Virus record (IMG/VR): IMGVR_UViG_3300022752_000244
Location: 1 to 32,726 of that record
Strand: one strand, 5' to 3'
DNA length: 32,726 bases
Source: a virus
Part shown: positions 2,127 to 31,157 of the stretch, piece by piece
How positions within the stretch are numbered: position 1 is the first letter of the stretch
How the letters are laid out: each line of letters begins with the position of its first letter
Notes under the pieces: generated by a model
Databases searched by the model: none
What the model was told of the DNA's origin: nothing
Seen by the model: only the letters and a program-made list of their open reading frames with translations
Program-made: the position numbers and the translations under genes

Positions 2127-2127
2127 C

Positions 2128-2305: not shown

Positions 2306-2310
2306 ATAGG

Positions 2311-2335: not shown

Positions 2336-2342
2336 GCGATAT

Positions 2343-2484
2343 TGAGAATCATTCGCAATGCTAATGCGAACCATTCGCAAATCACATTCCAGTGTGATAG
2401 TTTCATATAGAACCACATTTTAATGTGTCCGTCCTTTATTGATAATGATTCGCAATAGCCGCCCTTTATTGATAATGATTCGCA
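2343..2484. promoter_or_regulatory. Four Fur-box-like 7-1-7 palindromes
   Basis: Fifteen-bp elements lie at 2343-2357 (TGAGAATCATTCGCA), 2365-2379, 2440-2454 (TGATAATGATTCGCA) and 2470-2484 (same). They fit the Fur 7-1-7 pattern TGATAAT-N-ATTATCA with two or more mismatches each, and ATTCGCA half-sites as in some alphaproteobacterial iron boxes. The last two sit in a 30-bp direct repeat (2431-2460, 2461-2490). Two small palindromes at 2381-2398 and 2414-2427 lie between. Confidence 0.4.
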
Positions 2485-2490
2485 ATGCCT

Positions 2491-2570
2491 GCCCTTGCCT
2501 GCCCTTGCCTGCCCTTGCCTGCCCTTGCCTGCCCTTGCCTGCCCTTGCCTGCCCTTGCCTGCCCTTGCCT
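2491..2570. repeat. Eight perfect copies of a 10-bp repeat
   Basis: GCCCTTGCCT is repeated eight times without a mismatch, with partial units on both sides. The period of 10 is not a multiple of three, so it is not maintained by coding. On the minus strand GGG recurs every 10 bp with 7-nt loops, meeting the usual G-quadruplex rule, and the period is close to one helical turn. Confidence 0.9.
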
Positions 2571-2721
2571 GCCATATCCCTCCGACCCTGCCCAAAAATG
2601 CCCGCAAATGGCCCTTAGAGCGCGAAAGCGGCCCGGCCCGCACCTACCCTAGCTCGAGGCCTTGCCCTATGCTCTACGGGCCGGACATAAGGGGAACAAA
2701 CAAAAACACGAATAGGCAGGA

Positions 2722-2746
2722 GTCATGCAAGAATCGTGCCAATCGG
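2722..2746 (-). promoter_or_regulatory. Sigma54-type promoter in right arm of the 25-bp inverted repeat
   Basis: This is the exact reverse complement of 2311-2335, so the same -24/-12 element now reads left, with GG at 2740-2739 and GC at 2728-2727 and a start near 2715. The two arms face each other across 386 bp that hold the Fur-like boxes and the decamer repeat. Confidence 0.5.
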
Positions 2747-2758
2747 ATTCCGCAGACG

Positions 2759-2791
2759 AAAAAAATGCCCGGAACAAGTTGTTCCGGGCAT
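2759..2791 (-). terminator. Terminator of gene 2795-3064
   Basis: A stem of at least 11 bp (2765-2775 with 2781-2791) around an AAGTT loop is followed on the minus strand by seven T (2765-2759). Confidence 0.9.
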
Positions 2792-2794
2792 GTC

Positions 2795-3064
2795 TTAAGC
2801 TTTATTGCCAATCACCTTAATAACGCGACCATCAGGATAAAGTAAAAATTCGCCGGATTCCGCGTATTTTTCGGCTCTGCTAATATAGGGCGAAGCATAG
2901 GCGAGATCACCGTAAGGTGTGATGCAAACGATATGGCCTTTATTCAATGCCTGTTCTGCCTCTTCCCTATCGCTTAAATAAACATATACGGGAATGTTGC
3001 GAACAATCTCGTTGTTCGTGATGTTATTCGTCCAGACGACATCGCAATTGTCCTGAATAGCCAT
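2795..3064 (-). CDS. Hypothetical protein, 89 aa
   Basis: The protein is a soluble mixed alpha/beta type without membrane segments; features are VYVYLSDREEAEQALNKG in the middle and LLYPDGRVIKVIG at the end. The family is not recognised. ATG 3064 follows AAGGGACTAATACA, a ribosome site like that of the HAD phosphatase gene. It lies downstream of a stem-loop at 3081-3115, so it is either read through from the genes to the right or has a promoter I cannot identify. It ends at a strong terminator. Confidence 0.7.
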   Translation of the reverse strand: MAIQDNCDVVWTNNITNNEIVRNIPVYVYLSDREEAEQALNKGHIVCITPYGDLAYASPYISRAEKYAESGEFLLYPDGRVIKVIGNKA

Positions 3065-3080
3065 TGTATTAGTCCCTTAT

Positions 3081-3115
3081 CAAATAAAGCATGGCGATTG
3101 TAAGTATCGCCATGC
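3081..3115 (-). terminator. Terminator or attenuator between genes 3152 and 2795
   Basis: A perfect 10-bp stem (3089-3098 with 3106-3115) with a 7-nt loop is followed on the minus strand by TTTATTT. The T-run is interrupted, so partial termination is likely. Confidence 0.6.
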
Positions 3116-3151
3116 CAATAAAGAATGGAAAAGAGGGTGCCGCGCTTCCCA

Positions 3152-3310
3152 TTATTTGAAAGCCAGCAAGTTACGGGAGAATACTGCAAAGTCCTCCGCA
3201 GTATATTCTCCCGTTGCAATTTGTTCATTAACCCAATCGCGTGCCTCTTGTTCTGTCTTAAAGACCAGATAATCGTGCGCGGGATAGTCAACGACCATGT
3301 AATCAATCAT
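3152..3310 (-). CDS. Small hypothetical protein, 52 aa
   Basis: The protein starts MIDYMVVDYPAHDYLVFKTE and is acidic, with EARDWVNEQI suggesting a helix. The family is not recognised. The ATG at 3343 is rejected because it lies inside the palindrome 3333-3354; ATG 3310 follows AAGGGGAACAATC, a good ribosome site. It is probably cotranscribed from the gene at 3362-3718. Confidence 0.65.
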   Translation of the reverse strand: MIDYMVVDYPAHDYLVFKTEQEARDWVNEQIATGEYTAEDFAVFSRNLLAFK

Positions 3311-3332
3311 GATTGTTCCCCTTGGAAAGAGT

Positions 3333-3354
3333 AGGGGCGGCAATTGCCGCCCCT
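3333..3354. terminator. Perfect 22-bp palindrome between genes 3362 and 3152
   Basis: The 22 bases 3333-3354 (AGGGGCGGCAA and its reverse complement) are a perfect palindrome just beyond the stop of the gene at 3362. No T-run follows, so it is more likely an RNA processing or stability element, or a weak terminator. Confidence 0.5.
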
Positions 3355-3361
3355 ATATTGA

Positions 3362-3718
3362 TTAGGCCGCTTGGCTATCGCGGGAAAGTCCCGCGATTGC
3401 CAGTGCCATAAGATCCACGTTTTCATCGGCAATCGTGGCCGAATCCTGCGCAATCTTGCGGGCATTGGCAAGGGCCGCTTGAATCCAGCCCTTGATTGCA
3501 ACGCGCGAATTGAGCGGCATGTAGGGGGTCGATTCCGTGTTGGAGATATCCAACACATCACCGTTGTCGAACGTGACCAGATACAGGCCAATCGTGCAGG
3601 GGCCGTCAATGTAGCGAATCGCCTTAACGCCGCGCTGCGCCAGAATCCGCTCTACCGCGTCGCTGCCATAGGAGCGGGCAGGAGAAACATTCGATTCGTT
3701 AGTGGTGTAGTAGCGCAT
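3362..3718 (-). CDS. Hypothetical protein, 118 aa
   Basis: A soluble protein with a beta-rich middle (IGLYLVTFDNGDVLDIS) followed by an alanine-rich helical C-terminus (IQAALANARKIAQDSATIA). The family is not recognised. ATG 3718 has GGAGG 8-9 nt upstream, a strong site. A GC-rich hairpin (3738-3759) lies just before the ribosome site in the leader. It seems to be the first gene of the group 3362, 3152, 2795. Confidence 0.75.
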   Translation of the reverse strand: MRYYTTNESNVSPARSYGSDAVERILAQRGVKAIRYIDGPCTIGLYLVTFDNGDVLDISNTESTPYMPLNSRVAIKGWIQAALANARKIAQDSATIADENVDLMALAIAGLSRDSQAA

Positions 3719-3737
3719 TGGAATAACCTCCGATTAG

Positions 3738-3759
3738 GGGCGCGCGGGATTGCGCGCCC
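3738..3759. other. GC-rich hairpin in leader of gene 3362-3718
   Basis: GGGCGCGC (3738-3745) pairs with GCGCGCCC (3752-3759) around a 6-nt loop, about 20 nt before the start codon on the minus strand. It may mark an mRNA 5' end or be an operator. Confidence 0.5.
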
Positions 3760-4034
3760 TAGGCAAGTGCCGCCCTATCGGGTCGACTGGTTAATCACGA
3801 TGAGAAAGAGTCACCGAAGCGACGCCCTATCCCTAGGCCGGTGCATCACCCTTGCCAAGCCCCTATCGCAACCAAAATGGCGGTAATTAATGCAAAGCCT
3901 CGAGCCTATGTCACGCAATAAAGTTACGTGAGAGGGCGGTTCAAAGACATAATGTTGCGCCGCGCGCTCGGACTACTCCGCACGTACCACTTGGGGTAAA
4001 AAACCCAAACAAGGTGCCAAATAACTGGCCCAAG
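3760..4034. other. Intergenic gap without a recognisable gene
   Basis: No open frame with a ribosome site was found. It has repeated CCCTA-type words (near 3774, 3820 and 3862), a TTGGG-CCCAA stem near 3990-4005 and an ATAACT-AGTTAT stem at about 4021-4038 that may end the operon to its right. No tRNA fold and no clear promoter were seen. A promoter for gene 3362-3718 is expected here. Confidence 0.5.
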
Positions 4035-4307
4035 TTATCCCTGGTGATGCATCCACCGCTTCTTTCGCTCCCAAACTTCCCTAGGTGAGCTAAGAGAGTC
4101 CCCGAGAACATCGTCCGACTCCTGCTCAATGGCCCAAATCATCCCAAGCACATCATCCATTTCATCCCGTAGACGAATCACGTTTGGTGTTCCGTCGTCG
4201 TACTTCGAATGCCAGCCATGCCGAATAATCTTCGAGCAAGCCTGAATCACCTCCCCGCATTCCTCCATGAGAATCACTAGCCGCTCGCGCTCCGCATCAG
4301 TTATCAT
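4035..4307 (-). CDS. MazG-like nucleotide pyrophosphohydrolase
   Basis: This 90-residue all-alpha protein has the MazG/NTP-PPase metal-site pattern: EECGE (E15, E16, E19) in helix 1 and RDEMDDVLG (E49, D52) in helix 3. Phage members hydrolyse (d)NTPs to monophosphates plus pyrophosphate, or alter ppGpp and nucleotide pools during infection; the substrate here is unknown. At 90 residues it is a short single-domain form. It is the last gene of the eleven-gene operon, and its ATG overlaps the stop of the preceding gene by ATGA. A weak stem-loop follows. Confidence 0.75.
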   Translation of the reverse strand: MITDAERERLVILMEECGEVIQACSKIIRHGWHSKYDDGTPNVIRLRDEMDDVLGMIWAIEQESDDVLGDSLSSPREVWERKKRWMHHQG

Positions 4308-4483
4308 CGAGGCAACTCTTCAACCGAGATAATACGAAAGCCACTATGAATGTAGTAGTCCTTTACTGTAAAAGGCTGTACCACATCAGTGCGAATTTCC
4401 TTCGGCATATGAGGCTCTCCATAAATGCCCACAACCTGTACGGGCCATCCCGCATGCGCGTCAACGCTTACTCTAGTTGTCAC
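4304..4483 (-). CDS. Small hypothetical protein with GTG start, 59 aa
   Basis: The start is GTG (4483), overlapping the TGA of the preceding gene as GTGA; the stop overlaps the ATG of the MazG-like gene as ATGA. The protein is MTTRVSVDAHAGWPVQVVGI at its N-terminus, then a central HMPKEIRTDVV and a C-terminal FRIISVEELPR, so it looks like a compact beta-rich domain. The family is not recognised. The precise 4-bp overlaps at both ends are the main support that this short frame is a real gene. Confidence 0.7.
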   Translation of the reverse strand: MTTRVSVDAHAGWPVQVVGIYGEPHMPKEIRTDVVQPFTVKDYYIHSGFRIISVEELPR

Positions 4484-4773
4484 CCGTATAGCTCCTCATA
4501 ATATGGAGCATCCATACTCACACTAGATACTTCTCGAAGATCCACCATTGTTGATCCCTTGAGAGTAGGAAATGTATAAGTGTACTGCTTGTCGTTGATC
4601 GCATAGGCACGATCCTTCGCGACCAGCTCAGTAAGCTCCTCGAAAGCCTTTCGCGCCTCTTCCTCGTTATTCATAAGATACTTTAGTGGCCCAGAGCAGT
4701 ACTTATTTAGAATCATAAGACTCCATTGCTTGCTCTCCATTTGATGCCACTTTTCACGCTGTTCTTCAGTCAC
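4480..4773 (-). CDS. Hypothetical protein, 97 aa
   Basis: A soluble, mostly helical N-terminal half (residues 1-55, with NNEEEARKAFEELTELVAK) is followed by a tyrosine-rich part. The family is not recognised. ATG 4773 overlaps the stop of the upstream membrane protein gene by ATGA, and the stop overlaps the GTG of the next gene, so it is a translationally coupled middle gene of the operon. Confidence 0.75.
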   Translation of the reverse strand: MTEEQREKWHQMESKQWSLMILNKYCSGPLKYLMNNEEEARKAFEELTELVAKDRAYAINDKQYTYTFPTLKGSTMVDLREVSSVSMDAPYYEELYG

Positions 4774-4934
4774 TTTAGATCTCCAATATTCGCACAGTAG
4801 TTCTTGTGCTCGTAATGCACCACAATTCTTCCTAGCTCCTTACACCGGTCCCGACTTTCATGATCATTCGATACCGACCAGGCTATCAGAGCCATAAAGA
4901 GCAGAAAAAGTATAACCCCCGCTAGCTCACTCAT
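4770..4934 (-). CDS. Small membrane protein, 54 aa
   Basis: One hydrophobic helix (about residues 5-24, VILFLLFMALIAW) follows a short N-terminus; the C-terminal 30 residues are charged with two cysteines (CKELG, NYCAN). The start at 4934 is chosen over ATG 4958 because GGAG lies about 9 nt before it and because it overlaps the preceding small membrane gene by 8 nt. The overlapping pair of short membrane proteins recalls spanin or holin pairs, but there is no lipobox and the lysis genes are elsewhere, so no role is assigned. Confidence 0.65.
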   Translation of the reverse strand: MSELAGVILFLLFMALIAWSVSNDHESRDRCKELGRIVVHYEHKNYCANIGDLK

Positions 4935-5052
4935 ACCAATGCTCCACAAATTTCTCACAGACTATCTCTAGACCTAGCAGAGGGCCTAATACAATCCCTA
5001 TTACTATCGCGAAAGGTAGCATGGCTATCAGGTATAGTCTATGCCAGGTCAT
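4927..5052 (-). CDS. Tiny membrane protein, 41 aa
   Basis: MTWHRLYLIAMLPFAIVIGI begins a protein that is nearly all one transmembrane segment (about residues 7-29), ending in a charged tail with CEKFVEHWYE. ATG 5052 overlaps the TGA of the upstream gene as ATGA, and its stop overlaps the next gene start by 8 nt. These overlaps and the clear membrane character support it as a gene despite its length. Confidence 0.65.
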   Translation of the reverse strand: MTWHRLYLIAMLPFAIVIGIVLGPLLGLEIVCEKFVEHWYE

Positions 5053-5255
5053 TTTACGAAACTCTTCAGTAGCGCCTGATACTCACGCGAGTGTTTCGTA
5101 AGAAGGTCGTCGACCTCTCGCTTCTGCTCTTGCGTGAGAACCTGCTCAATCTGTGTAGATTGGCAGATTCCATTTACTACCCCATTATTAATTTGACCGT
5201 GCATAATCACCTTATCAAAATTGATATATGCTAGGTCTAGCCATTCACTTTCCAA
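5049..5255 (-). CDS. Hypothetical protein with TTG start, 68 aa
   Basis: The start is TTG at 5255, backed by AAAGGAG 7 nt upstream inside the end of the preceding gene; the next in-frame ATG is 17 codons further in. The N-terminal part is beta-like (LDLAYINFDKVIMHGQ), and the C-terminal half is a charged helix (LTQEQKREVDDLLTKHSREY). The family is not recognised. It overlaps the upstream gene by 11 nt and the downstream one by 4. Confidence 0.7.
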   Translation of the reverse strand: MESEWLDLAYINFDKVIMHGQINNGVVNGICQSTQIEQVLTQEQKREVDDLLTKHSREYQALLKSFVK

Positions 5256-5448
5256 TGATATACTCCTTTACTTGTTCCCAGAAGAGCTTAGCGTCCCCAG
5301 TGATGTTCTCGCTTAGCCCGGTTACTTCCCCGGTTGTGCAGCTGACTTTGATCTTACCAAAGACTACGTGAGAGGGCTTCACTAATTCATTTGGAACTGC
5401 TTCGTATCTGGGAATTGAATTCCAATCCTCGTCTAGTGGCTTACTCAT
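5245..5448 (-). CDS. Hypothetical protein, 67 aa
   Basis: A soluble protein with central IKVSCTTGEVTGLSENI and a C-terminal helix. The family is not recognised. ATG 5448 lies one base after the stop of the upstream gene, and its own end carries the ribosome site for the next gene's TTG start. Confidence 0.7.
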   Translation of the reverse strand: MSKPLDEDWNSIPRYEAVPNELVKPSHVVFGKIKVSCTTGEVTGLSENITGDAKLFWEQVKEYIIGK

Positions 5449-5449
5449 A

Positions 5450-5650
5450 TTAGCATCTCATGGGTGCTGTAGCATTTGGTTGCGCATGTACTTGGTCAAG
5501 CTTTGGGTTCGGCATACTAGGATCAATCTCGTGAATGAAGACCATTGCTAGATGCTTGCGAATACTACGTACTTGTTCTGGCGTTGGTTCGTCACTGTCT
5601 GTCAGCTCAAAGAAACCCTGCAGCCAAAAACAAAAATCTCTACTTTTCAT
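5450..5650 (-). CDS. Conserved small phage protein, 66 aa
   Basis: The sequence RDFCFWLQGFFELTDSDEPT, followed by a helix with PEQVRSIRKHLAMVFIHEID, resembles a small family common in large phages (pattern RDFCxWLQGxFE then EQVxxIxxHL). Its function is unknown to me. The start at 5650 lies inside the end of the four-cysteine gene, overlapping by 11 nt. The resemblance is from memory, not a search. Confidence 0.7.
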   Translation of the reverse strand: MKSRDFCFWLQGFFELTDSDEPTPEQVRSIRKHLAMVFIHEIDPSMPNPKLDQVHAQPNATAPMRC

Positions 5651-5774
5651 TTACTCGCTCCTTTATGTGGGCAAAGCAGCCCATTTGTTTAATTCTTGGT
5701 TTGCCTCCGTAGGGGCTATCTGGATTTTTACAGAAACTATCTCTGAAGTACTTACAGGTGTCGCACTTATTCAT
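5640..5774 (-). CDS. Four-cysteine, zinc-ribbon-like small protein, 44 aa
   Basis: Cysteines at C4, C7, C15 and C33 (CDTCKYF, then FCKNP, then MGCFAH) are consistent with one zinc-binding knuckle. ATG 5774 overlaps the stop of the upstream gene by 8 nt (ATGAATAA), and the stop overlaps the next start by 11 nt. It could bind zinc and nucleic acid or a protein partner; the sequence shows no more. Confidence 0.65.
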   Translation of the reverse strand: MNKCDTCKYFRDSFCKNPDSPYGGKPRIKQMGCFAHIKERVNEK

Positions 5775-6111
5775 AGAACATTCTTTGTTCGATTTCTTTC
5801 GCTGTTCTTAAGGCCTTATCGAAATCTCGATCATAAAGCTCATATCGAAGCCTTACTAGCTCTGACCGAAACTCTCCGAAGATAAGCTCGGTAAGTGCTC
5901 GCTTGATCGCATGAACTGCGTCCTCCTTTTGGTTCTGATTGTCGTCGTCAATCCTGATAGTATGTCCGAGCTTGACTCCAACGAAATACTCTGTAAGAAA
6001 AGGATTATGAACAGGCTTGTTCATTTCCGAGTCCACCACTAGAAGTGGGGGCAACTGTGCATATTTCTTGCCAGTTATACCGGCTTCGATCTTTTTAATT
6101 ATCTCGCTCAT
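5767..6111 (-). CDS. Conserved hypothetical phage protein, 114 aa
   Basis: The N-terminal half is beta-type (PPLLVVDSEMNKPVHNPF, then YFVGVKLGHTIRI) and the C-terminal half helical (KRALTELIFGEFRSELVRLR). The family feels familiar from other phages, but I cannot name it. ATG 6111 has AAAGGAG 8 nt upstream. It is the first long gene of the operon driven from 6221-6249 and overlaps a tiny upstream frame by 17 nt. Confidence 0.75.
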   Translation of the reverse strand: MSEIIKKIEAGITGKKYAQLPPLLVVDSEMNKPVHNPFLTEYFVGVKLGHTIRIDDDNQNQKEDAVHAIKRALTELIFGEFRSELVRLRYELYDRDFDKALRTAKEIEQRMFYE

Positions 6112-15091: not shown

Positions 15092-15361
15092 ATGACAAGA
15101 AGAACAAGTATAATTTCTCAACTTGGTGCTTACTTTGCCTCTAAAGGAGGGGTAATGACCATGGAAGAGTATAAAAAAGCAGAAGATGCGCCTATTAGGT
15201 TTGTTTTAATTAAAAGAACAATCGGTTCGTGGGGCAGACTACTAAATATGATCGGTGACGTAAGTAACTATAGTATTGAGGTAGATATTGTTAAAGAGCC
15301 CGCTCCTAAAGAGGAAAAGCCAAAAGCTGAACCAGTAGTCTCAAAGACTAAAGGAGCTTAA
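15092..15361 (+). CDS. Small head-region protein with a possible second start
   Basis: The 89-residue protein has a conserved-looking core, DAPIRFVLIKRTIGSWGRLL, and a charged proline-rich tail (KEPAPKEEKPKAEP). The function is not known. ATG 15092 follows AGGAAATTAACA, but a far stronger site, AAAGGAGG, lies inside the gene before ATG 15155, so a 68-residue form starting MTMEEYKK may be the main product. It is placed between portal and the protease-capsid gene, with 2-nt gaps. Confidence 0.7.
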   Translation: MTRRTSIISQLGAYFASKGGVMTMEEYKKAEDAPIRFVLIKRTIGSWGRLLNMIGDVSNYSIEVDIVKEPAPKEEKPKAEPVVSKTKGA

Positions 15362-15363: not shown

Positions 15364-18300
15364 ATGGCTAAAGTAGGTGGAGAAGAAATTGATCTAACTC
15401 CTACCGATGGTATGGCCAGAGAAGCCCAAAAAGCACTAGACTGGAGAAAAGAAGGACATTCAGGAGGTACCTCTGTAGGACTTGCTAGAGCTAGGCAACT
15501 AGTAAATAAGCAAGAACTATCACCAAGTACAGTACGCAGAATGCATAGTTTCTTCAGTAGACACGAAGTAGATAAGAAGGGCGAGGGATTTTCTCCCGGT
15601 GAGCCAGGTTATCCATCTAAGGGTAGAGTTGCTTGGGCACTGTGGGGTGGAGACCCAGGCCAAACATGGGCTAGAGCTAAGTCAGAGACACTAGATCGTC
15701 TTGAAGGCAAAAGCATAGATTATACTAAAGAATATACTGAAGAAGAAGATATAGAAGAAAAAGCTGGCCCACAAGATTTAAAAGTTGGAGATTTTGTAAC
15801 CTGGGGATCTTCAGGTGGAACAGCAAAAGGTAAAATAGAGCGAATTGTTAGAGATGGATCCTTAAATGTACCAAATAGTTCATTTACTATTGAAGGAACA
15901 AAAGAAGATCCCGCAGCTCTTATTAGAATTTATAAAGACGGAAAAGAAACCGATACTCTAGTAGGACATAAATTTTCTACGCTAACAAAAGCATCTTCTA
16001 AATCATTAGAGGATACGCCATGTCCTGTAGTAACTCAAAATAGTGAAGCAAATATTGCAAATCACTTAATAGCAATTCAACAAGCTAATTTAGGACCAGC
16101 AGACCCTACCGCCCATAGTGATACATACTGGAATTATATGGCGGAACAGTGGATGGTTCCATCCGATGAAGCTAGAGTTCGTCAATGCCAAAATTGCGAG
16201 TATTATGACAACTCTCCAAAAGTTTTAGACTGTTTAAAGTCTTCAACTTTTAAAGCCTCGGATTTACCAGTTACTCCTAAATGGGCCGATGTTACTGCAG
16301 AAAGTGGACATTGCACTAAATGGGATATTACTTGCACTAGTATAAGAACATGTGTAAGTTGGGAGCCAGATGAGGGCGAAGAAGATACTGGAGAAATAGA
16401 CATGGAAGATGATACATCAAACCTAGACGGTCAAATGATTTCTCTTAGTATGAACAAACCAGTAACTAAGATGTTCAAATTTGACTCTACAATCAAAGCA
16501 GTAGACGCAGGTGAAGGCGAGTTAAAGATTGATGGATATGCAAGCACAGTATCAGTAGATCGTTCAGCAGATGTAATTTTAGCCTCTGCATGGAATAAAT
16601 CTGGTGGATTAAATAACTATAAAGCTAACCCAATTCTTTTATTCAATCATAACTATGACAAACCAATAGGTAAAGTTGTAGAGATGGGTACAGATAATAA
16701 AGGTTTAAGAATTAAGGGTATCATCAGTAAGAGTGCTGGAGATGTTTATAATCTTGTTAAAGAAGGAGTTCTAACTACCTTTTCTGTAGGTTTCCTAATT
16801 AAAGATGCAGACTACAATAAGGAAAGTGATGGACTAATAATAAAAGATGCAGAGCTTCTAGAAGTATCTGTAGTATCAGTACCTTGTAACCAAGACGCTA
16901 CATTCTCTGTAGCTAAATCATTTGATAATCAAGATGATTATCTAAATTTTAGAAAACAATTTGAAAATGCTCTAGGTGGTCAGCCTTCCGCTGAAACCGG
17001 AGGCTCATCAGAGGGCGCTAAAACGGCGTCAAGGAAATTAAAAATGGAAGAAAATACAAACGACATGATCCAGAAGGCTGTTGCAGACGCTCTTGCAGCT
17101 CAGAAAGCAGCAGCAGAGGCAGAAGCTGCAAAGGCTGCGGATGCTAAGGCAGCCGAAGAGAAGATCGTAGCTAAGGTACTAGAGACCGGATCAGAAAAGC
17201 TATATGCTGAGCTAGAGAAGCGCTTTAAGGACGACAAGACTGAACTAGAGACAAAGCTAGAAGGTCTACGTACTGAAATCTCCGAGAAGTCAACAGAACT
17301 ACAGGCTATTGCTAACAGCAAGCGCGTATTCGCAGATCGTAATGGTGGCGATTCTTGGAAGAAGGAACTCCTACCAGAAATGGAGAACGCATTCCTATTA
17401 GGACGTATCACTGGAAAGGGATATGAGACTAATTATGCTAAGTCACTTATGGAGAAGGCAAACACCATGTCTTCAATCGCAGTATCAAGTGACAGTTTTG
17501 AGCGTGAAGTTTCAACAAATATCGAACGCGAAATCCAACTAGAACTAGTTCTAGCTCCACTATTCCGCGAGATCCAAATGAATACTGCTAGTATGATTCT
17601 ACCAATCATGCCAGATACAAGCTATGCACAACTTTCAGCAAGTTCAGGTACTACAACAGTAGGTAGCGGATCAGGCTCATATCAGGCTGGATCACTTGAT
17701 GAACGTTCAGGTACTACAGGAGCTGGTACTGGTACTGGTATTCTTCTAAGAGAAATCGATCTACGTACTATTAAGCTAGTTGCTAAGAGCTACCTAGGTA
17801 ATGAAACTGAAGAGGACGCAATTATTCCTATTCTTCCACTACTACGTGAGGCAATGATTCGTCAGCATGCTCGTGGTGTAGAAAACCTAATGCTACTTGG
17901 TGGTGCAACAAGCGCTGGTGGCGCTTACTCAGCAGCTGCTCTAGGTACATATACAAAGGGTCTAGTAGCTTATGCAGAGACTCAGTCACGTAATATTACT
18001 AACAGTGCAACCGTTAACGGAACAGGTGGTACTGACGCAACAAGCGTAACTGGTATCGCACTTCTAGCTCTACGTAAGAAGATGGGTAAGTATGGTATTC
18101 GTCCAGGTGATGTTGTTTACATCGTTTCACAGACTGCATACTTCGATCTACTACAGGATTCAGAGTTCCAAGACTTCAACCTCGTAGGTAACATCGCAAC
18201 CAAGATGACTGGTGAAGTTGGTCAGATCTTCGGATCATCAGTACTAGTTTGTGACGAATTCGCAAACACAGGAGCTACAGGAACTTACGCAGCTCTAGCT

Positions 18301-18462
18301 GTTAACGTACGTAACTTCGTTGTTCCACGTCAGCGTGGTATCACAGTAGAAAGCCAGTACCTAGTTGAGCAGCAGTACAGAGTAATGACTACAACTCAGC
18401 GTCTAGGTTTCCGTGAAATCATTGATAACGCACCAGCAGTTGTTGGTCTAAAGTACGCTTAA
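15364..18462 (+). CDS. Accessory domains-prohead protease-scaffold-major capsid fusion, 1032 aa
   Basis: Five parts lie in one frame. Residues 1-115 are a phage domain with AREAQKALDWRKEGHSGG and VAWALWGGDPG. Residues 137-209 are a small beta domain like the DUF2945/Tudor-type HVA1 family (KVGDFVTWGSSGGTAKGKIE). Residues 219-340 form a cysteine-rich domain with CQNCEYY. Residues 360-545 are an HK97-type prohead serine protease (H429 in LFNHN, S474 in TFSVGF). From 561 a helical, alanine-rich scaffold leads into an HK97-fold capsid protein. Normally protease and capsid are separate genes. The protease should remove the scaffold and free the capsid subunit during maturation. Codon use changes at about residue 560. 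Confidence 0.9.
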   Translation: MAKVGGEEIDLTPTDGMAREAQKALDWRKEGHSGGTSVGLARARQLVNKQELSPSTVRRMHSFFSRHEVDKKGEGFSPGEPGYPSKGRVAWALWGGDPGQTWARAKSETLDRLEGKSIDYTKEYTEEEDIEEKAGPQDLKVGDFVTWGSSGGTAKGKIERIVRDGSLNVPNSSFTIEGTKEDPAALIRIYKDGKETDTLVGHKFSTLTKASSKSLEDTPCPVVTQNSEANIANHLIAIQQANLGPADPTAHSDTYWNYMAEQWMVPSDEARVRQCQNCEYYDNSPKVLDCLKSSTFKASDLPVTPKWADVTAESGHCTKWDITCTSIRTCVSWEPDEGEEDTGEIDMEDDTSNLDGQMISLSMNKPVTKMFKFDSTIKAVDAGEGELKIDGYASTVSVDRSADVILASAWNKSGGLNNYKANPILLFNHNYDKPIGKVVEMGTDNKGLRIKGIISKSAGDVYNLVKEGVLTTFSVGFLIKDADYNKESDGLIIKDAELLEVSVVSVPCNQDATFSVAKSFDNQDDYLNFRKQFENALGGQPSAETGGSSEGAKTASRKLKMEENTNDMIQKAVADALAAQKAAAEAEAAKAADAKAAEEKIVAKVLETGSEKLYAELEKRFKDDKTELETKLEGLRTEISEKSTELQAIANSKRVFADRNGGDSWKKELLPEMENAFLLGRITGKGYETNYAKSLMEKANTMSSIAVSSDSFEREVSTNIEREIQLELVLAPLFREIQMNTASMILPIMPDTSYAQLSASSGTTTVGSGSGSYQAGSLDERSGTTGAGTGTGILLREIDLRTIKLVAKSYLGNETEEDAIIPILPLLREAMIRQHARGVENLMLLGGATSAGGAYSAAALGTYTKGLVAYAETQSRNITNSATVNGTGGTDATSVTGIALLALRKKMGKYGIRPGDVVYIVSQTAYFDLLQDSEFQDFNLVGNIATKMTGEVGQIFGSSVLVCDEFANTGATGTYAALAVNVRNFVVPRQRGITVESQYLVEQQYRVMTTTQRLGFREIIDNAPAVVGLKYA
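17044..18462 (+). CDS. Nested in-frame start: scaffold plus major capsid protein, 472 aa
   Basis: ATG 17044 (residue 561 of the long frame, MEENTNDMIQKAV) has AAGGA 8 nt upstream. From here lysine codons switch from mostly AAA to mostly AAG, and CGT/CGC arginine codons replace AGA, the bias of highly expressed genes. The 472-residue product, a coiled delta-domain of about 100 residues plus an HK97 capsid protein, has the length of an ordinary capsid precursor. Such a start would give many capsid subunits per protease-bearing chain. The internal start is inferred; protein data are lacking. Confidence 0.6.
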   Translation: MEENTNDMIQKAVADALAAQKAAAEAEAAKAADAKAAEEKIVAKVLETGSEKLYAELEKRFKDDKTELETKLEGLRTEISEKSTELQAIANSKRVFADRNGGDSWKKELLPEMENAFLLGRITGKGYETNYAKSLMEKANTMSSIAVSSDSFEREVSTNIEREIQLELVLAPLFREIQMNTASMILPIMPDTSYAQLSASSGTTTVGSGSGSYQAGSLDERSGTTGAGTGTGILLREIDLRTIKLVAKSYLGNETEEDAIIPILPLLREAMIRQHARGVENLMLLGGATSAGGAYSAAALGTYTKGLVAYAETQSRNITNSATVNGTGGTDATSVTGIALLALRKKMGKYGIRPGDVVYIVSQTAYFDLLQDSEFQDFNLVGNIATKMTGEVGQIFGSSVLVCDEFANTGATGTYAALAVNVRNFVVPRQRGITVESQYLVEQQYRVMTTTQRLGFREIIDNAPAVVGLKYA

Positions 18463-23578: not shown

Positions 23579-24025
23579 ATGAATTTAAGTGAACTAATGG
23601 TCGATACAAAGTCAGCATGGGTAGAGTACCCAGGCTACGAAGGCTTCGAAGTAGAAGTAGTAAATCTTTCTCGGCCCGAATTAACAGCGCTACGTAAGCG
23701 TTGCTTAATTACTAAATATGACAAGACTACACGTAAGCCTGTTGAGGAACTAAATGAAGAGAAGTTCATTGCAGAGTTCACCAAGGCTACGATCAAGAAT
23801 TGGAAGGGATTCAAGTACAAGTTCCTACAGGATTTTGTACTAGTAGATATTTCAAAGGTAGATCCAGAAAAGGAACTTCCATACAGCCAAGATAATGCTA
23901 AGCTTCTAGTTACTAACTCATCAGAGTTCGACACTTGGGTGAATGATACGGTGTTCGATCTAGAGAACTTTCGTACAGAGCCAAAGGGAGCAAATGTGGC
24001 AGCGACTGGAAAAGTGGCAGAATAA
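23579..24025 (+). CDS. Tail assembly chaperone, first frame (gpG-like)
   Basis: This 148-residue protein has the place, length and charge of a gpG-type chaperone that coats the tape measure before tube assembly: an N-terminal beta domain (WVEYPGYEGFEVEVVNLSRP) and a helical part (EEKFIAEFTKATIKNWKGF). GGAG precedes ATG 23579. Codon use is of the highly expressed type. It overlaps the second chaperone frame, which is read +1 (equal to -2) relative to it. Confidence 0.75.
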   Translation: MNLSELMVDTKSAWVEYPGYEGFEVEVVNLSRPELTALRKRCLITKYDKTTRKPVEELNEEKFIAEFTKATIKNWKGFKYKFLQDFVLVDISKVDPEKELPYSQDNAKLLVTNSSEFDTWVNDTVFDLENFRTEPKGANVAATGKVAE

Positions 24026-24356
24026 TCTAGACGTAGGAATGACAAAGGATAGGTACCTGGCCATGTGTGAACAAATGGGCCAGGAACCCTCTGAAGCTAA
24101 ATGCCCTCCTGAGTATGAGGATTTTCCGCTACCTTTGCAGCAAGCTATAGAAGTCTTTAATAGACTAGGTGATAGAGTCTATCCAGACATAGGCTACATG
24201 GGAAAGGATTACGTAGCGCTACCACTTCATATGGAAGTAGTGGGAGTGACTGAGAAAGATATTTTTCTAGAGGCCTTGGTAAGGCTTGATGCTAGTCTCA
24301 TAAAGAGATCGGCTGATCAAATGAAAAAGGCACGGGATTCCGTCAAGAAGAAATAG
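23994..24356 (+). CDS. Tail assembly chaperone, second frame (gpT-like)
   Basis: The 120-residue frame is open from 23964, overlaps the first chaperone to 24025 and ends one base before the tape measure start. YEDFPLPLQQAIEVFNRLGD and the helical C-terminus resemble second-frame chaperones of T5-like tails. It may be joined to the first frame by a +1 or -2 shift between 23964 and 24025, or start at ATG 23994 with AAAGGGAG just before it. Which of these holds cannot be decided from sequence. Confidence 0.65.
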   Translation: MWQRLEKWQNNLDVGMTKDRYLAMCEQMGQEPSEAKCPPEYEDFPLPLQQAIEVFNRLGDRVYPDIGYMGKDYVALPLHMEVVGVTEKDIFLEALVRLDASLIKRSADQMKKARDSVKKK

Positions 24357-24357: not shown

Positions 24358-27300
24358 ATGGCAAATAATACTGGAGAGTATACATTATTAATTAATGCTA
24401 TAGGTGATTTAACCAAGGCAATAAAGCAGAATAAGAACTTTGCTGCTTCGGCAAACGAGGCAGCAGCGGCTCAAGATAGAGCACGTAAAGCTTCAAAGAA
24501 GCACAATGATATATTAAACGGTGGTGTAGCAAGTGCTAATAACGCCGGACGAAGTATGTCCAAATTAATAGAAACAGTCGGCGGTAATAATAGTGGACTA
24601 GTAGCCGCATACGCAACACTAGCTACTAATGCGTTCGCTGTTAGTGCCGCTTTTAGTGCTTTAAGAAATGCTGCTCAAGTAGAGCAGATGATGAAAGGTC
24701 TAGAGGTACAAGGCGCAAGAACCGGCAAAAATCTAAAGGGACTATCAAATGATCTCCAAGAGATAACCAATTATTCTATTAGTGCTGCTGATGCTATGCA
24801 GGCAACTGCACTTATGAGCTCCGCTGGATTTAGCTCCCAAGGGATGAAGGACCTAGTCACAGTTGCAAATAATGCCGCATTAGCACTAGGAAGAAACGTT
24901 CCAGATTCTCTAGATAGAATTAGTAAGGGTGTTACTAAATTGGAGCCCGAGCTACTAGATGAACTTGGTATTATGACCAAATTAACAGAAGCTCAATCAG
25001 CTTATGCTCTTGAAAATAATAAAAGCGTTGGCTCTTTAACTTCATTCGAAAAAAGACAGGCAATGCTTAATGCTGTAGTTGCAGAAGGCACCGCTAAGTT
25101 TGGTGGATTATCTGACCAGGTAGGAGCCAATCCTTATGATAAATTAGCAGCGACCTTCAGTAATCTAACAAACAATGTATTAGGCTTTGTAAATACTGTC
25201 GCAGGTCCTCTCGCTGCAGTATTAGGAAGTAATCAAGGCCTACTACTTGGTGCTTTAATTTTATTCGTAAGCTCAATTAGAAAACAAATGCTGCCAGCGT
25301 TAGCTCAAATGAGCGAGAATGCTATAAAAGCAAAAGATATTCACTTACAAGAAGCTGAAGCAATCAAAACAAAGACAGCAGCAACACTAGCAGATGCTAA
25401 AGCAACTAGATTAGCCGCTTTAGAAACAGCTAGAAGTTCTGTTGGTACTATTGCTGGTAAAGCAAATCCTAGAAGTTTTAGAGTTAAAGAACTACAAGAG
25501 GGAACATTATCTCTCAAAGAAATGAATAAAGAATTAGATAGATTAAATAAATCTATAACTGGTAGAGAAAAAAGTATAGAAGGAACTGGGTTTAAAGTAG
25601 ACCCATCAAAGATACCACAAAAGAAAGTAGAATTGCAACTAATAAAACAAGAGCGTGATAACTTAGCAGCTTTAATAAAATTAGAAACTGAAGGTGATTC
25701 TACTATTAAGCCTTTAAGAGAAGAGGCAATAAAAGGTAAATTAGAATATATAAAACAACAAAAATTAGCAGCTATGGAAGGTAAGAAAGCAGAAGCCTTA
25801 GAGGCAGCCTCTTCTGGTACTATAAAAGGTGTAATAGAAAGTTGGGGGAAAGCTAAAGAAGCTGTTGAAGAGTATAAAAAATCCATTAAAGCTGAAGGAA
25901 TGCAAAGTAGGGTACAAGAAGGTGGAAATATAAAACCACAAACAGGACTCGGAAGGCTCTCAGAAAAAATTAAAGGATCAATTGGAAGTGTAGGAATATA
26001 TACATCTACTATGACTGCTGGAATTATGTCATTACTTCCTTATATTGGTACTGCTACTACCGCATTATCTGCCGCCTGGTCAGTATATCAGAACTTCATA
26101 AAGTCAGATGCTGATAAGGCCCGTACAGAAGCTCTTAATAAGTTAAAAGAAACTTTAGATAATACAAGAAAATCAGTAGAAGAATTAAATAGGCTAAATG
26201 AAGCTTCTATTCCTATTGGATTAAAAGCTGCACAAACCCTAACTATTCAATCAAATGCCACTGCTGAAATAGCAGGAGCTTTTGATGAAGTCAAAAATGC
26301 GGCGGAAAAGGCAAAAAATAATACCGAAACAGATAGTATCTGGAAAGTTATCATAGGCTCCCCGGAAGACGCAGTATCATACGCTACTGGAGTGGCTAAG
26401 GATAGCGAGTTCTTTAAGCCTATAGCAGACGAGCTTAAAAATTCTACAGCATCGTATGGAGGAGCCGCTGCTGGTGCACTTATAGGGGGAATGGCTGCAT
26501 TCTTTGCCGGACCAGCAGGTCCACTAGTTGCAGCAGCAACTGTACCTCTAGGTGTTGCAATAGGTAACAGACTAGGAACAGCATTCGCACAATTACTACC
26601 AGAAGAGCTCAATGGGATAGATGAAGAAGCAATAGCAAGCTTTAGAGCTATGGATCAGCTAAGTAAAATACTAAATAAAGACGTATATGATAGCATGATC
26701 AAAGCCGCTGGCGGGGCTGACAATTTAGCTAAGAGCCCGGCTTTAAGAGACGAGTTCTTACGACAGGCTGCTTCAGCTTATGTTGGAGTCGCGGATGCAG
26801 TAAAATCTCTACAAGAAGCTTTTAAACAAACTGGAACAGCTATTACCCAGTTTTTTACAAGTGCTATTCCAACAACACCTTTTGACGGCTTAGTTAAGGG
26901 GTACTCCTCAGTTAATAAAGCATTCCAAGAACTAGATAGTACTATTGGAGGCTCTAATATGAAGGAACAGGTCAAGCTTATGTCCTCTATGCCTGAGGAA
27001 ATGATTAAACTTCTATCTGTACCACAGCAGCAAATTATACAGAATCTTCAAAAAGAATCCGCACAACTAGAGTATAATAAGACTTTAATAGATGACTTAG
27101 TTAAGAAAGGTAAAGACAGATCCAACGAAGAAGAAAGACAGTTAAATTACTTAACTCAACAAAATATCTCTATTAATAAAAATATGGAAACATATTATAA
27201 AGAGGGAGAGGCTATAAAGCAGTCCCTACGAGATACAGAAGCTACTCTAAAATCCAACCAAAGACAATCTATATTGTATAATAGTCAGTTAAGCCTGGTA

Positions 27301-30300
27301 AACGCTATATCTAGTGCTAACTCCGAGATATACTCTAAGAGCGCGGAGGGTGAGAAGGCTAGAATCCAGAGGCATAATGAGGCTATTAGACTTCAGCAAG
27401 CGCAGTTAAATCTTCAAATAAGTATAACCGAAACATATATTGCACAAGCAGAAGCTCAAATTGATCTATTAGAAATACAACAAGTAGCACTAAAAGTAAC
27501 TAAAGAAATGGATACTGCTTCTATGCAGAAGGCTCGTAATGATGCGGAAACAGCCAAAAATATAGCTTCAACAGCAGCTCTAAGTGCTGGACTAACACAA
27601 GAGTATCTAGATAGTATTGACGCCGTAATAGCTCGTAAGAAGCAGTTAGGTCCTGACGCTTTAATGAAAGCTACTATTGATTATAATAGAACAGGTGACT
27701 TACTGAAGGCAGCTGAAGCCTATGGATCTGCTCAAAAAGGATTAGAAATTGCTTCGTTCCGAGCAGCTAATTCTATAAATATTGAATCTCATAAAGATCA
27801 AATATCTAGTTTTAATCAGCAAGTATCAGCATTAAGAAATTCAGTAGCCGCTTTAGATGAGAGTATCATTGGTACAAATCAAGAAGCAGGATTAATAGCA
27901 AAAAGACAGGCAGAACTAGCCAAGGCTGAAGAGGCTCGTCAGTTACAGATAAAAGAAATCACTATTGATAATAATGAGGTTCTTAGAGCCTCTTATAATT
28001 TAACAAAACAGCGTGCAAACGCTATATATGAAACTATAAGAGCTACAACAATACAACTATCTAAAGACAAAGAGAGAGCAGCACAGGAAGCTGGAAGCAA
28101 TATAAAAATACTTGAAGCAGAAAGAAAGATTTACGAAGGTAGATTAAAGGATCGTCCTAATATGGCTCAACCAGAAAAAGAGTCATATGAAGCAGCTATA
28201 AAAAGTTTAGATACTCAAATAGCGCAGGAGAATCAGCTCAATATTTTAGGTCAGCAAAGGCTAGACGTATTAGCTCAGCAGAGTATTTTACAGTCTATAA
28301 TTGGACAAGGACTAGGTGACTCCCTGCAGAAGCTACAGGAGTCTATTCAGGGACAGCAGAAATTACTCGATCTTACCAATGAAGTAGCACAAAAAGAGAT
28401 GCAAATAGCTCAGAATAGAAGTAAGCTAGCTATTACTAAAATGGGAGGTACTGTTGATGAGGATACTCAAAAGCAGTTCGCAGTAGAGGCTGCTGAGATA
28501 GCTTATAAGGCTGCTCAAGAAAATTATATTTTAAGACAGCAATCAATTGATGCAGAATATGCTCTATTAAAAGTACAGAGAGAAGCAGAGTCTGGTAATA
28601 TAAAGGCTCAAATATATTTAATTAAAGCTTTCGCTCAAGTATTTAATGTACAGAGCAAAGAACTACAAGATAACTTAGATGCTCTAACTTCTGCAGCCGC
28701 ACGTATTGAAGCAACAGATACTACAGCAATGAAGAATCTGGCTAAAAGATCGGCGGCTGCTGATCTAGAATTGTCTCGTCAAGCTTTGGAACAGGCTAAA
28801 GCAGAGAGAGATACTGTAGGTATGCCAAAATGGCTATCACCTATAACTAATCTGATGGCAAGAATAGAATCTAGAAATAGAGCTGAAGCTACCGCTAATT
28901 CTCCAATAAATGAGTCTAGGACTCCAACTATTGTAAGATTAGACGCTCAAGTCGAGGAGCTGAAATCCCAAGTTTCATTGCTAGTTCAAATTAGAGATAA
29001 TTTGAATAAGGTATTACCGGCAGTAATTCCTCAGACTAATACAGAAACAGTAGGAGAACAGATAAGCTCATCAGTAGCTACTTCGCTTTCAAAAAGCCAA
29101 GTTTGGCAAAATCTTATACAACAAGAATCTGGTGGTAGACAGTTTAAGAAAAACGGAGAAACCCTAACTTCTAGCAAAGGGGCAATAGGTATTGCGCAGC
29201 TAATACCAAAATATGGTCCAGATTTTGCAAAAATGGCTGGAACCACTTGGGATGAAAGTAAGGCTAGAAAGGATAAAGATTATAATTTAAAATTAGGTTA
29301 CGCTAATTTTGAAAATCTAATAAAGCATTATGGTGGTGATTTATTAAAAGCAGCCGCCGCATATAATGCTGGCCCTGGAAAGATTGATAAACTTATAGAA
29401 GAAAAAGGAAAAGATTGGAGATCAGGACTGGGTAGAGAAACTAGAGATTATATAAAAACAATCTTTAAAGGTATGGCACAAGAAAAAAGAGCCATACTAA
29501 AAAGCTCCTCAGATATTGCAGCTAATCCATCTGTAATAAATACTACTGATAATGGTACAATTGGTACTCCAGAAATCTCAACTCTAGTAGCCGTTCCGGC
29601 CTCCTTAGAGACTACTGCTACCGCAGCGGGACAGGCTGCTGAAAGTGCTAAACTTAAATTCTCGGATCTCTTTGAAACAATAAACACTGCCTTCGCAGTT
29701 TCTATGGGTATCATGGAAGATCTTGGTGCTCAAATGTCAGAAAGACTAGGGCAGGACTTCGGTCCACAAGGCAAAATACTAAGCTCAATAGCTAATCTAT
29801 CAAAAGAACTAGAAAAGTTTGCTACCAACATGTCAAAAAGTTGGGAAGGCTTATTTCCAAAGATGCCAGTATTGGAAGGTATTGGTGGTCCAATGAATAA
29901 CTTCCCAGTTGCTATGAATGCACAAAGTGTTAGCTCTGTATCCGGAATGACACAACCTGTTAATACAAGTCTAGCTGGATCTGCTTCTGCTGCAGCGCCT
30001 GCAGCTCCTTTAACTGGAGGAGTAGATAACATTGGTAGTAGTTTATCTGGATTATCCGGTCTATCTCAAACTACTACTGAATTAACTGGCGGATTAGATA
30101 ATCTAGCAAGTAAAGCTTCGGAAACTGCTAAATTAAGCACAGATAGTATCAAAGCAGCCAGCGTTGAGGTAGATACTGCACAAACTAAAACTACCGAAGG
30201 TTTCAATAAACAAATGCAATCTGCTTCAGTTGCATTTGGTGCTATAGCTGGAATGATTGGTGCAGTAGCTGGACTATTAAAGTCCTCTTCTGATGCTAAA

Positions 30301-31068
30301 ATAGCCGGTATAGATAAAGAAATCGCAGCTGAACAAAGGCGTGATGGTAAATCCGCAGCTAGTGTCGCTAAACTAGATGCTCTCGAAAAGAAGAAAGATA
30401 ATCAAGCTAGAAAATCTTTCAATACTCAAAAGAAGCTAATGATGGCACAGGCTGTTATGGCAACAGCTGCAGGTGTGGCCAACGCGCTAGGCAGTGCTAA
30501 ACCTCCAATGAACTTTATCTTAGCAGGTATAATAGGTGCAATGGGTGCAGCTCAGATAGCTATTATTGCCAGTACTCAATATGATAGTAGCTATAAGGCA
30601 CCTACAGCAGCTATGCCATCAAATCTATCAATAGGCAAGCGCTCTGATACAGTAGACCTAGCCAAAGGTCCAAATGCTAGCGCAGGCGGAGAAGTTGGCT
30701 ACTTAAGAGGAGCATCTGGACAGGGTACTAATGCTACTAATTACCGCACGGTAGGCTCCGCCTACGGTGGCGAGCTAATGAGAGGCTACGGTAATCGTGG
30801 ATTCGTTGTTGGTGAGAAGGGGCCTGAAGTTATTACTCCAGAAACGCCAATCTCAGTTACACCAGCTAATGACGTTGGTTCAGCACAACCAATCAACGCT
30901 AATTTCACAATCCAAGCTCTTGACTCAAACGGTGTCCAAGACATTCTAGTAAGTCAGAAGGGTAATATTATTAAGATGCTTAGAGAAGCTGCTAACGCTT
31001 CAGGCAAGACATTCATGGAAGACGTAAACGTTAATGTTTACACAAGACCTCAAGTTAACAGGTTATAA
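24358..31068 (+). CDS. Tape measure protein with lytic transglycosylase domain, 2236 aa
   Basis: Hydrophobic N-terminal segments (ANNAGRSMSKLIETVGGNNS and following), a glycine/alanine membrane-like stretch at about 700-740, and long coiled-coil regions (about 900-1500) mark a tape measure protein. Residues about 1578-1705 are a lysozyme-like SLT domain with the catalytic ES of QQESGGRQF, SKGAIGIAQLIP and AAAYNAGPGKID, expected to open peptidoglycan during DNA entry. The last 250 residues hold a hydrophobic segment and a tail-tip-like end. At about 0.15 nm per residue it implies a tail of roughly 330 nm. ATG 24358 directly follows the chaperone stop. Confidence 0.95.
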   Translation: MANNTGEYTLLINAIGDLTKAIKQNKNFAASANEAAAAQDRARKASKKHNDILNGGVASANNAGRSMSKLIETVGGNNSGLVAAYATLATNAFAVSAAFSALRNAAQVEQMMKGLEVQGARTGKNLKGLSNDLQEITNYSISAADAMQATALMSSAGFSSQGMKDLVTVANNAALALGRNVPDSLDRISKGVTKLEPELLDELGIMTKLTEAQSAYALENNKSVGSLTSFEKRQAMLNAVVAEGTAKFGGLSDQVGANPYDKLAATFSNLTNNVLGFVNTVAGPLAAVLGSNQGLLLGALILFVSSIRKQMLPALAQMSENAIKAKDIHLQEAEAIKTKTAATLADAKATRLAALETARSSVGTIAGKANPRSFRVKELQEGTLSLKEMNKELDRLNKSITGREKSIEGTGFKVDPSKIPQKKVELQLIKQERDNLAALIKLETEGDSTIKPLREEAIKGKLEYIKQQKLAAMEGKKAEALEAASSGTIKGVIESWGKAKEAVEEYKKSIKAEGMQSRVQEGGNIKPQTGLGRLSEKIKGSIGSVGIYTSTMTAGIMSLLPYIGTATTALSAAWSVYQNFIKSDADKARTEALNKLKETLDNTRKSVEELNRLNEASIPIGLKAAQTLTIQSNATAEIAGAFDEVKNAAEKAKNNTETDSIWKVIIGSPEDAVSYATGVAKDSEFFKPIADELKNSTASYGGAAAGALIGGMAAFFAGPAGPLVAAATVPLGVAIGNRLGTAFAQLLPEELNGIDEEAIASFRAMDQLSKILNKDVYDSMIKAAGGADNLAKSPALRDEFLRQAASAYVGVADAVKSLQEAFKQTGTAITQFFTSAIPTTPFDGLVKGYSSVNKAFQELDSTIGGSNMKEQVKLMSSMPEEMIKLLSVPQQQIIQNLQKESAQLEYNKTLIDDLVKKGKDRSNEEERQLNYLTQQNISINKNMETYYKEGEAIKQSLRDTEATLKSNQRQSILYNSQLSLVNAISSANSEIYSKSAEGEKARIQRHNEAIRLQQAQLNLQISITETYIAQAEAQIDLLEIQQVALKVTKEMDTASMQKARNDAETAKNIASTAALSAGLTQEYLDSIDAVIARKKQLGPDALMKATIDYNRTGDLLKAAEAYGSAQKGLEIASFRAANSINIESHKDQISSFNQQVSALRNSVAALDESIIGTNQEAGLIAKRQAELAKAEEARQLQIKEITIDNNEVLRASYNLTKQRANAIYETIRATTIQLSKDKERAAQEAGSNIKILEAERKIYEGRLKDRPNMAQPEKESYEAAIKSLDTQIAQENQLNILGQQRLDVLAQQSILQSIIGQGLGDSLQKLQESIQGQQKLLDLTNEVAQKEMQIAQNRSKLAITKMGGTVDEDTQKQFAVEAAEIAYKAAQENYILRQQSIDAEYALLKVQREAESGNIKAQIYLIKAFAQVFNVQSKELQDNLDALTSAAARIEATDTTAMKNLAKRSAAADLELSRQALEQAKAERDTVGMPKWLSPITNLMARIESRNRAEATANSPINESRTPTIVRLDAQVEELKSQVSLLVQIRDNLNKVLPAVIPQTNTETVGEQISSSVATSLSKSQVWQNLIQQESGGRQFKKNGETLTSSKGAIGIAQLIPKYGPDFAKMAGTTWDESKARKDKDYNLKLGYANFENLIKHYGGDLLKAAAAYNAGPGKIDKLIEEKGKDWRSGLGRETRDYIKTIFKGMAQEKRAILKSSSDIAANPSVINTTDNGTIGTPEISTLVAVPASLETTATAAGQAAESAKLKFSDLFETINTAFAVSMGIMEDLGAQMSERLGQDFGPQGKILSSIANLSKELEKFATNMSKSWEGLFPKMPVLEGIGGPMNNFPVAMNAQSVSSVSGMTQPVNTSLAGSASAAAPAAPLTGGVDNIGSSLSGLSGLSQTTTELTGGLDNLASKASETAKLSTDSIKAASVEVDTAQTKTTEGFNKQMQSASVAFGAIAGMIGAVAGLLKSSSDAKIAGIDKEIAAEQRRDGKSAASVAKLDALEKKKDNQARKSFNTQKKLMMAQAVMATAAGVANALGSAKPPMNFILAGIIGAMGAAQIAIIASTQYDSSYKAPTAAMPSNLSIGKRSDTVDLAKGPNASAGGEVGYLRGASGQGTNATNYRTVGSAYGGELMRGYGNRGFVVGEKGPEVITPETPISVTPANDVGSAQPINANFTIQALDSNGVQDILVSQKGNIIKMLREAANASGKTFMEDVNVNVYTRPQVNRL

Positions 31069-31119: not shown

Positions 31120-31148
31120 TTGACTTTTTAAGTTTTTTCGTGTATAAT
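31120..31148 (+). promoter_or_regulatory. Promoter of the homing-endonuclease-like gene
   Basis: TTGACT at 31120-31125, a 17-bp spacer and TATAAT at 31143-31148. The start codon follows 10 nt after the -10 box, so the leader is only about 3 nt. Confidence 0.8.
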
Positions 31149-31157
31149 TATATTATT

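Follow-up and report, generated by a model that had tools for sequence, protein, structure and literature searches.

In phage lambda, a protease and an abundant assembly protein are specified within one gene, the nested product Nu3 being made in the same frame as the protease C by means of an internal start. Herpesviruses possess a rare protease-scaffold chain (UL26) and an abundant scaffold (UL26.5) that share a frame and co-assemble, the short form coming from a separate transcript and lacking the capsid protein. In phage T5 and other Demerecviridae the protease (pb11) and the major capsid protein (MCP, pb8) are encoded by separate genes, which in T5 are neighbours. According to the accessible parts of the respective papers, the T5 head contains about 775 copies of pb8, from which the scaffold domain is cut off by pb11 (PMC5292684), and in DT57C the first 160 residues of the capsid protein are removed (PMC10713586). 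Single genes encoding both the protease and the MCP have also been reported, namely gene 5 of Pseudomonas phage MD8 (PMC8508860) and genes of Arthrobacter phages Circum and Maggie (PMC5513430) and Rhodococcus phage Jflix2 (PMC13313380), as far as the available text of these reports goes. The available text of the MD8 paper includes a passage on the shared lambda gene C/Nu3, citing Shaw and Murialdo 1980 (PMC8508860). An internal capsid start is not described for the MD8, Circum/Maggie or Jflix2 fusion genes in the accessible portions of these sources, which is weak evidence of novelty given the thin coverage of subscription journals; the word "internal" is absent from the main text of PMC8508860 and PMC5513430.

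The DNA analysed here, referred to as the window, comes from IMG/VR as a virus record 32,726 bases long. It contains a fused ORF flanked by a portal gene and a small ORF on one side and a head completion gene on the other, with the following features:

15350..15356, plus strand, Shine-Dalgarno sequence (SD) AAAGGAG of the full-length product, 7 nt ahead of ATG 15364
15364..18462, plus strand, fused ORF of 1032 aa: N-terminal module, S78 prohead protease and scaffold-capsid part (T5 pb8-like)
15388..15678, plus strand, N-terminal domain (residues 9-105) matching phrog_2859, a family of unknown function
15787..15948, plus strand, Tudor-like domain PF11160 (residues 142-195)
16492..16929, plus strand, Peptidase_S78 prohead protease domain (residues 377-522) with conserved H429, S474 and E500
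16970..17013, plus strand, distal RNA hairpin predicted ahead of the internal start, without significance in the window by itself
17014..17030, plus strand, predicted proximal RNA hairpin, its last base directly before AAGGA
17031..17035, plus strand, internal SD AAGGA, 8 nt (spacer 17036-17043) ahead of the ATG
17044..17046, plus strand, internal in-frame ATG, codon 561 (17044-15364 = 1680 nt = 560 codons)
17044..18462, plus strand, putative nested scaffold-capsid product of 472 aa, an end-to-end homologue of T5 pb8 (458 aa)
17044..17457, plus strand, predicted delta (scaffold) domain, removed at maturation, as judged from the T5 alignment
17458..18459, plus strand, predicted mature HK97-fold shell protein of about 334 aa

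The fused ORF matches PF04586 (Peptidase_S78) with an E-value of 1.8e-19 and has PHROG matches to both protease and major-head families. The conserved His, Ser and Glu, which we take to be the catalytic residues by reference to the S78/HK97 protease family, are found wherever the position is present in 85 aligned rows of relatives (H 81/81, S 84/84, E 85/85). From M561 onwards the sequence aligns with T5 pb8 over its full length at 32% identity, so that the start of the nested product coincides with that of the separate T5 pb8 gene. Profile matches of this part include 8zvi, 8ho3 and 5tjt, and a PDB major capsid protein of 458 aa is matched with an E-value of 9e-178. The 299-residue T5-type capsid chain 5tjt aligns from profile position 163, which would put the maturation cut at about residue 138, counted from the nested start. 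An AlphaFold model of the full 1032-aa chain had a mean pLDDT of 47 and was set aside.

The N-terminal module (window 15364-16437) is variable among relatives, which may possess, lack or have shortened forms of the phrog_2859 domain, the Tudor-like domain and a Cys-rich stretch (L002, L055, L062), and residues 136-219 have no match in L002 by tblastn, as if exchangeable domains had been added ahead of the protease. Elsewhere in the window, positions 1-6111 have a GC content of 46-50% vs 37-41% in the remainder, with minus-strand ORFs and a higher third-position GC, and a polynucleotide-kinase-phosphatase-like ORF lies at 763-1236. A T5orf172/HNH-type endonuclease-like gene (31140-31982), resembling a homing endonuclease, is located between a 2236-aa ORF with a lytic transglycosylase domain (24358-31068) and the distal tail protein gene. 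At 23579-24356 two tail assembly chaperone ORFs overlap in different frames; such ORFs are often joined by programmed frameshifting.

The window thus resembles T5 and its kin in gene order, in the S78 protease, in the delta-bearing pb8-like MCP and in having an SD before the capsid, but differs in that both proteins lie in one ORF. All six cleanly annotated cultured phages of the T5 type (T5, PG07, Athena, D386, Proteus phage 2 and Klebsiella phage rec23; the fragmentarily annotated AhSzq-1 was omitted) have two separate genes, and their upstream hairpin is weaker. With MD8, Circum, Maggie and Jflix2, going by the accessible text of those reports, the window shares a single gene for protease and MCP, but the available MD8 text aligns that protease to the lambda type (PMC8508860), whereas the protease of the window belongs to S78. 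As in lambda C/Nu3, a protease chain and a presumably abundant assembly protein share a gene, and an in-frame internal start with its own ribosome-binding site is found by inspection of the sequence; unlike Nu3, which is scaffold only with the capsid protein E encoded separately, the nested product contains scaffold and complete MCP. The proposed scheme is like UL26/UL26.5 in being nested and co-assembling but differs in that the herpesviral short form has its own transcript and does not include the capsid protein.

The initial annotation had proposed that AAGGA, 8 nt before ATG 17044, directs the synthesis of a second product, giving chains of 1032 and 472 residues from one frame. Both the position of the motif and the two chain lengths agree with our reading of the sequence. 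The internal SD is moderate, with a duplex energy of -5.4 kcal/mol vs -7.9 for the stronger SD of the full-length product, and ranks third among the 22 in-frame ATGs of the ORF. It is spelled with AGG, an infrequent choice for Arg in this gene (2 of the 20 Arg codons among codons 1-560), and when the five codons before ATG 17044 were resampled synonymously, the SD was equalled in 3% of draws (p 0.033). The stretch from -14 to +6 around the internal start is 72% unpaired, compared with an ORF mean of 47%, and in 24 hand-picked lineage representatives the unpaired fraction of the SD-to-ATG stretch is 0.59 vs 0.42.

Relatives were collected from three sources: a protein search of viral contigs yielded 43, a profile search contributed the best 80 of 550, and 2 came from genome contigs, all belonging to a single gammaproteobacterial MAG. 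The resulting 126 loci comprise 111 with both domains in one ORF (the window, L044, included), T5 with split genes, and 14 without a protease, where the contig begins inside the ORF. All 110 relatives holding both domains have them fused, a set that draws on the best 80 of 550 profile matches and comes from searches favouring close relatives, so that split forms may exist among more distant ones. L034, L035, L038 and L043, which are truncated near or after the junction, as well as L036 and L037, were omitted from early locus comparisons. Inteins or similar insertions, which split protease matches seemed to indicate in some relatives, proved unreal, the extra matches scoring near zero.

The 111 fused ORFs were reduced to 85 non-redundant junctions. 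Each of these (85/85, drawing on the best 80 of 550 profile matches), to be read as a count over non-independent samples, has an in-frame ATG with an SD of -5 kcal/mol or lower, and 76 reach -6 or lower. At the same threshold, an SD precedes 118 of the 1317 ATGs that lie in frame elsewhere in these ORFs, and 4 of the 301 that lie out of frame in the linkers. Where the ORF is complete, translation from the chosen start would give a C-terminal product of about 450-500 aa. The Met occupies the aligned column in 84/85 rows and, in an alignment of 17 sequences, M561 is the sole invariant residue between F533 and E611. The SD is spelled differently among lineages, in 29 distinct contexts: AAGGAAATTAAAA in the clade of the window, and CAGGAGAGACAT, ACGGAGACGAAA and TAAGGAGAATCGC in others. 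In L046, L047 and L049 the first Met was used for the junction SD counts and for the clade codon-switch analysis, and in the resampling, hairpin and accessibility analyses the start was shifted 7 codons downstream to the Met homologous with that of the window.

Three relatives carry a second in-frame ATG with an SD of about -7.4 to -8.4 just ahead of the protease domain (codon 362 in L052, 236 in L055 and 235 in L056, counted in the stop-to-stop ORF), which hints that some of the relatives whose N-terminal module is long may have a third nested product. The window showed no such SD at the corresponding position when its sequence was read by eye. Strong-SD in-frame ATGs at codons 185 and 220 of the MD8 fusion gene were considered as a second case of an internal start, and no claim is made for them in view of the high GC content of that genome and the position of codon 185 within the protease.

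The SD appears to be maintained beyond what the protein demands. The 85 junctions have a mean SD energy of -6.59 kcal/mol, which synonymous resampling of the five preceding codons weakened to -2.40 kcal/mol, with a median p of 0.040 and p of 0.1 or less in 51/85. In ATGGAG contexts p is only about 0.23-0.36; there the SD is partly set by the amino acids, because the ATG is forced. Where Glu stands at codon -3, inside the SD, it is encoded by GAG in 66 of 68 cases vs 1039 of 4151 elsewhere in these ORFs. Across 43 conserved Glu columns this position has the highest GAG fraction (0.97), followed by a column 14 codons upstream (0.96). The latter falls within a second zone of strong synonymous constraint in the relatives, codons -14 to -11 (GAG CAG CCA AGY), which adjoins the predicted distal hairpin.

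A hairpin directly 5' of the SD recurs in individual folds of lineages with differing sequences. In a stretch chosen after inspection of these folds, nucleotides -36 to -10, it was formed in all 45 distinct sequences, with a median synonymous-shuffle p of 0.052 (0.05 or less in 21/45, worst 0.226); a median fraction of 0.071 of windows from the same ORF were equally stable. For nucleotides -72 to -10 the mean z over 57 distinct sequences was -1.58, with 29/57 below -1.5. Among 60 distinct upstream sequences, the 30 ungapped ones were submitted to RNAalifold, and in their consensus a 3-bp stem alone survived, with one covarying pair (-26/-21: A-U in 15, C-G in 15, no mismatches) that differs even between the otherwise alike L102 and L108. 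The 130-nt fold of the window itself was not significant against dinucleotide shuffles (z -0.53). When 65 offsets were scanned in the 24 hand-picked representatives, structure beyond synonymous expectation was strongest immediately 5' of the start, at offset -6 (mean z -2.03, against a mean of -0.72 and sd of 0.49 for all offsets), with offsets -36 and +90 likewise reaching about -1.55. The same upstream stretch has an energy of 0 to -4.1 kcal/mol in the six split relatives vs -3.7 to -8.2 in fused ones. Taken as a signal of a structured internal ribosome-binding site, these predicted folds appear real but moderate.

Codon use changes in the middle of the ORF. AAA/AAG counts go from 35/11 in codons 1-560 to 1/25 in codons 561-1032 and AGA/CGT counts from 13/3 to 2/17, with further shifts past codon 561 from TTA to CTA, CAA to CAG and ATA to ATC. 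An unsupervised change-point search over all synonymous codons placed the best split at codon 565 (log-likelihood gain 99.0), with codon 561 at 97.8 and codons 561-570 nearly tied; 60 synonymous shuffles gave a mean gain of 26 and a maximum of 36.5, and a repeat with 40 shuffles agrees. With Lys and Arg codons only, the optimum falls between codons 581 and 590 (34.1), followed by the split between 560 and 571 (32.8). The initial annotation had put this switch exactly at the ATG; a switch is indeed located there, but given the Lys/Arg split its exactness holds only within about 10-20 codons. In codon use, the next most MCP-like genes of the window include the tail chaperone (23579, score -0.006) and the major tail protein (20818, -0.101), along with a 72-aa ORF (10713, -0.029) and ORFs 1559 (-0.058) and 4480 (-0.118); the portal and ORF 24358 score about -0.43. 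The capsid itself scores 0.323 when trained on itself, and 0.14 and 0.22 when each half is scored with the other.

In the clade of the window (L044, L001, L002, L046, L047 and L049-L056) the gain exceeds all 50 shuffles in 13/13 non-redundant members. For 10 of the 13 the change-point gain peaks no more than 8 codons from the Met used there; for the remaining L049, L050 and L052 the gain close to the Met falls short of the peak by at most 1.7. Among all 85 non-redundant ORFs, 30 beat their shuffles anywhere and 12 within 15 codons of the start. A codon switch as a signature of the whole family was therefore ruled out: it is consistent in the clade of the window only and is a property of that clade, whereas the internal start is a property of the family.

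These observations bear on several other ways in which the locus might work. All capsid subunits could come from the full-length chain and be freed by the fused protease, the internal ATG and SD remaining unused. A protease with conserved H, S and E in the same chain fits such a polyprotein, as does the annotation of the MD8, Circum and Jflix2 fused genes as single products in the accessible text of their reports. Retention of ATG and SD at 85/85 junctions despite sequence change, together with the GAG constraint, speaks against it; moreover, a codon shift in mid-chain would be unexpected if the two halves were always made one to one, and one protease per subunit would be wasteful. We regard a polyprotein alone as very improbable. 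The nested product could instead be translated from a shorter mRNA, arising from an internal promoter or from RNA cleavage at the hairpins, with the same start codon and transcriptional control. Hairpins directly 5' of the SD could then serve as processing or stabilising elements, but a scan covering sigma-70-type promoters found no sigma-70-like site on the plus strand from 16207 to 17044, and we consider this route unlikely without being far-fetched.

The SD and ATG might also be an inactive relic of a capsid gene that preceded the fusion. Split T5-like relatives do have an SD ahead of the capsid gene, and that of Proteus phage 2, AAGGAAATTAAAAG, is much like the AAGGAAATTAAAA of the window. 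Yet retention in 85/85 junctions, across lineages about 45% identical and in 29 contexts, and the isolation of the invariant Met are unlike a relic, and we find the idea of an inactive remnant scarcely credible. The same likeness points to the internal site being the former ribosome-binding site of a separate capsid gene, whose SD and start would have been kept upon fusion. As for the codon switch, it could mark recombination that joined a capsid module of foreign codon habits rather than a difference in expression. In close relatives capsid identity is lower than protease identity (0.81 vs 0.98 with L002, for example) and identity is patchy. On the other hand, the switch is present in 13/13 clade members whose capsid domains are 58-95% identical, and so has been kept, the codon use of the major tail protein leans the same way, and protease and capsid distances are rank-correlated (0.84 over all pairs, 0.41 within the clade). 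Recombination as the source of the switch is quite unlikely in our estimation.

Taken as a whole, one frame encoding two nested proteins, with an internal start at ATG 17044, is in our judgement very likely the best explanation of the locus. The claim of two products from one frame finds strong support in the 85/85 junctions with ATG and SD, in the coincidence with the T5 pb8 start, in the codon constraint on the SD and in the codon switch of the clade, and internal initiation at ATG 17044 is likewise strongly supported by comparison of these sequences. Very probably, then, the shell protein is also made alone from the conserved ribosome-binding site in mid-ORF. In a scheme that draws on the fusion, the conserved start with its accessible SD, the pb8 homology and the codon switch, all of which were observed in the comparison, ribosomes starting at 15364 would produce the 1032-aa chain, consisting of the N-terminal module, the S78 protease, the scaffold (delta) domain and the HK97-fold shell. 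Other ribosomes would initiate anew at ATG 17044 by means of AAGGA 17031-17035, which lies in locally unpaired RNA immediately 3' of the hairpin, and would yield the 472-aa scaffold-capsid protein. The protease would be brought into the prohead covalently on a capsid subunit, among many free capsid subunits, and after assembly it would trim the delta domains and probably release itself.

We conclude that most of the capsid protein is probably the 472-aa product and that the 1032-aa chain would ferry the protease into the prohead joined to a capsid subunit. We infer that both products are made, at a given ratio, and that they co-assemble before self-release. Since the full-length start has the stronger SD, the proposal of a rare full-length and an abundant nested product is founded on codon use and on the hundreds of MCP copies that a capsid needs. 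More tentatively, the fused loci may represent a large uncultivated T5-like lineage that has lost the stop codon between protease and capsid and gained a dedicated internal initiation element, tandem hairpins abutting the SD, which would allow fresh loading of some ribosomes while others continue through from upstream, would thereby set the protease-to-capsid ratio, and would bring in the protease attached to a shell subunit; our confidence in this broader reading is somewhat below even.

How hundreds of capsid subunits are supplied for a few proteases is left unaddressed in the accessible accounts of the MD8, Circum and Jflix2 fusion genes. The family of the window may offer a concrete answer, which could be tested by changing a single codon, and would supply many natural variants in which to study internal initiation inside a frame that is itself translated. 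If so, annotation of such fused ORFs as a single product would miss the main capsid protein.
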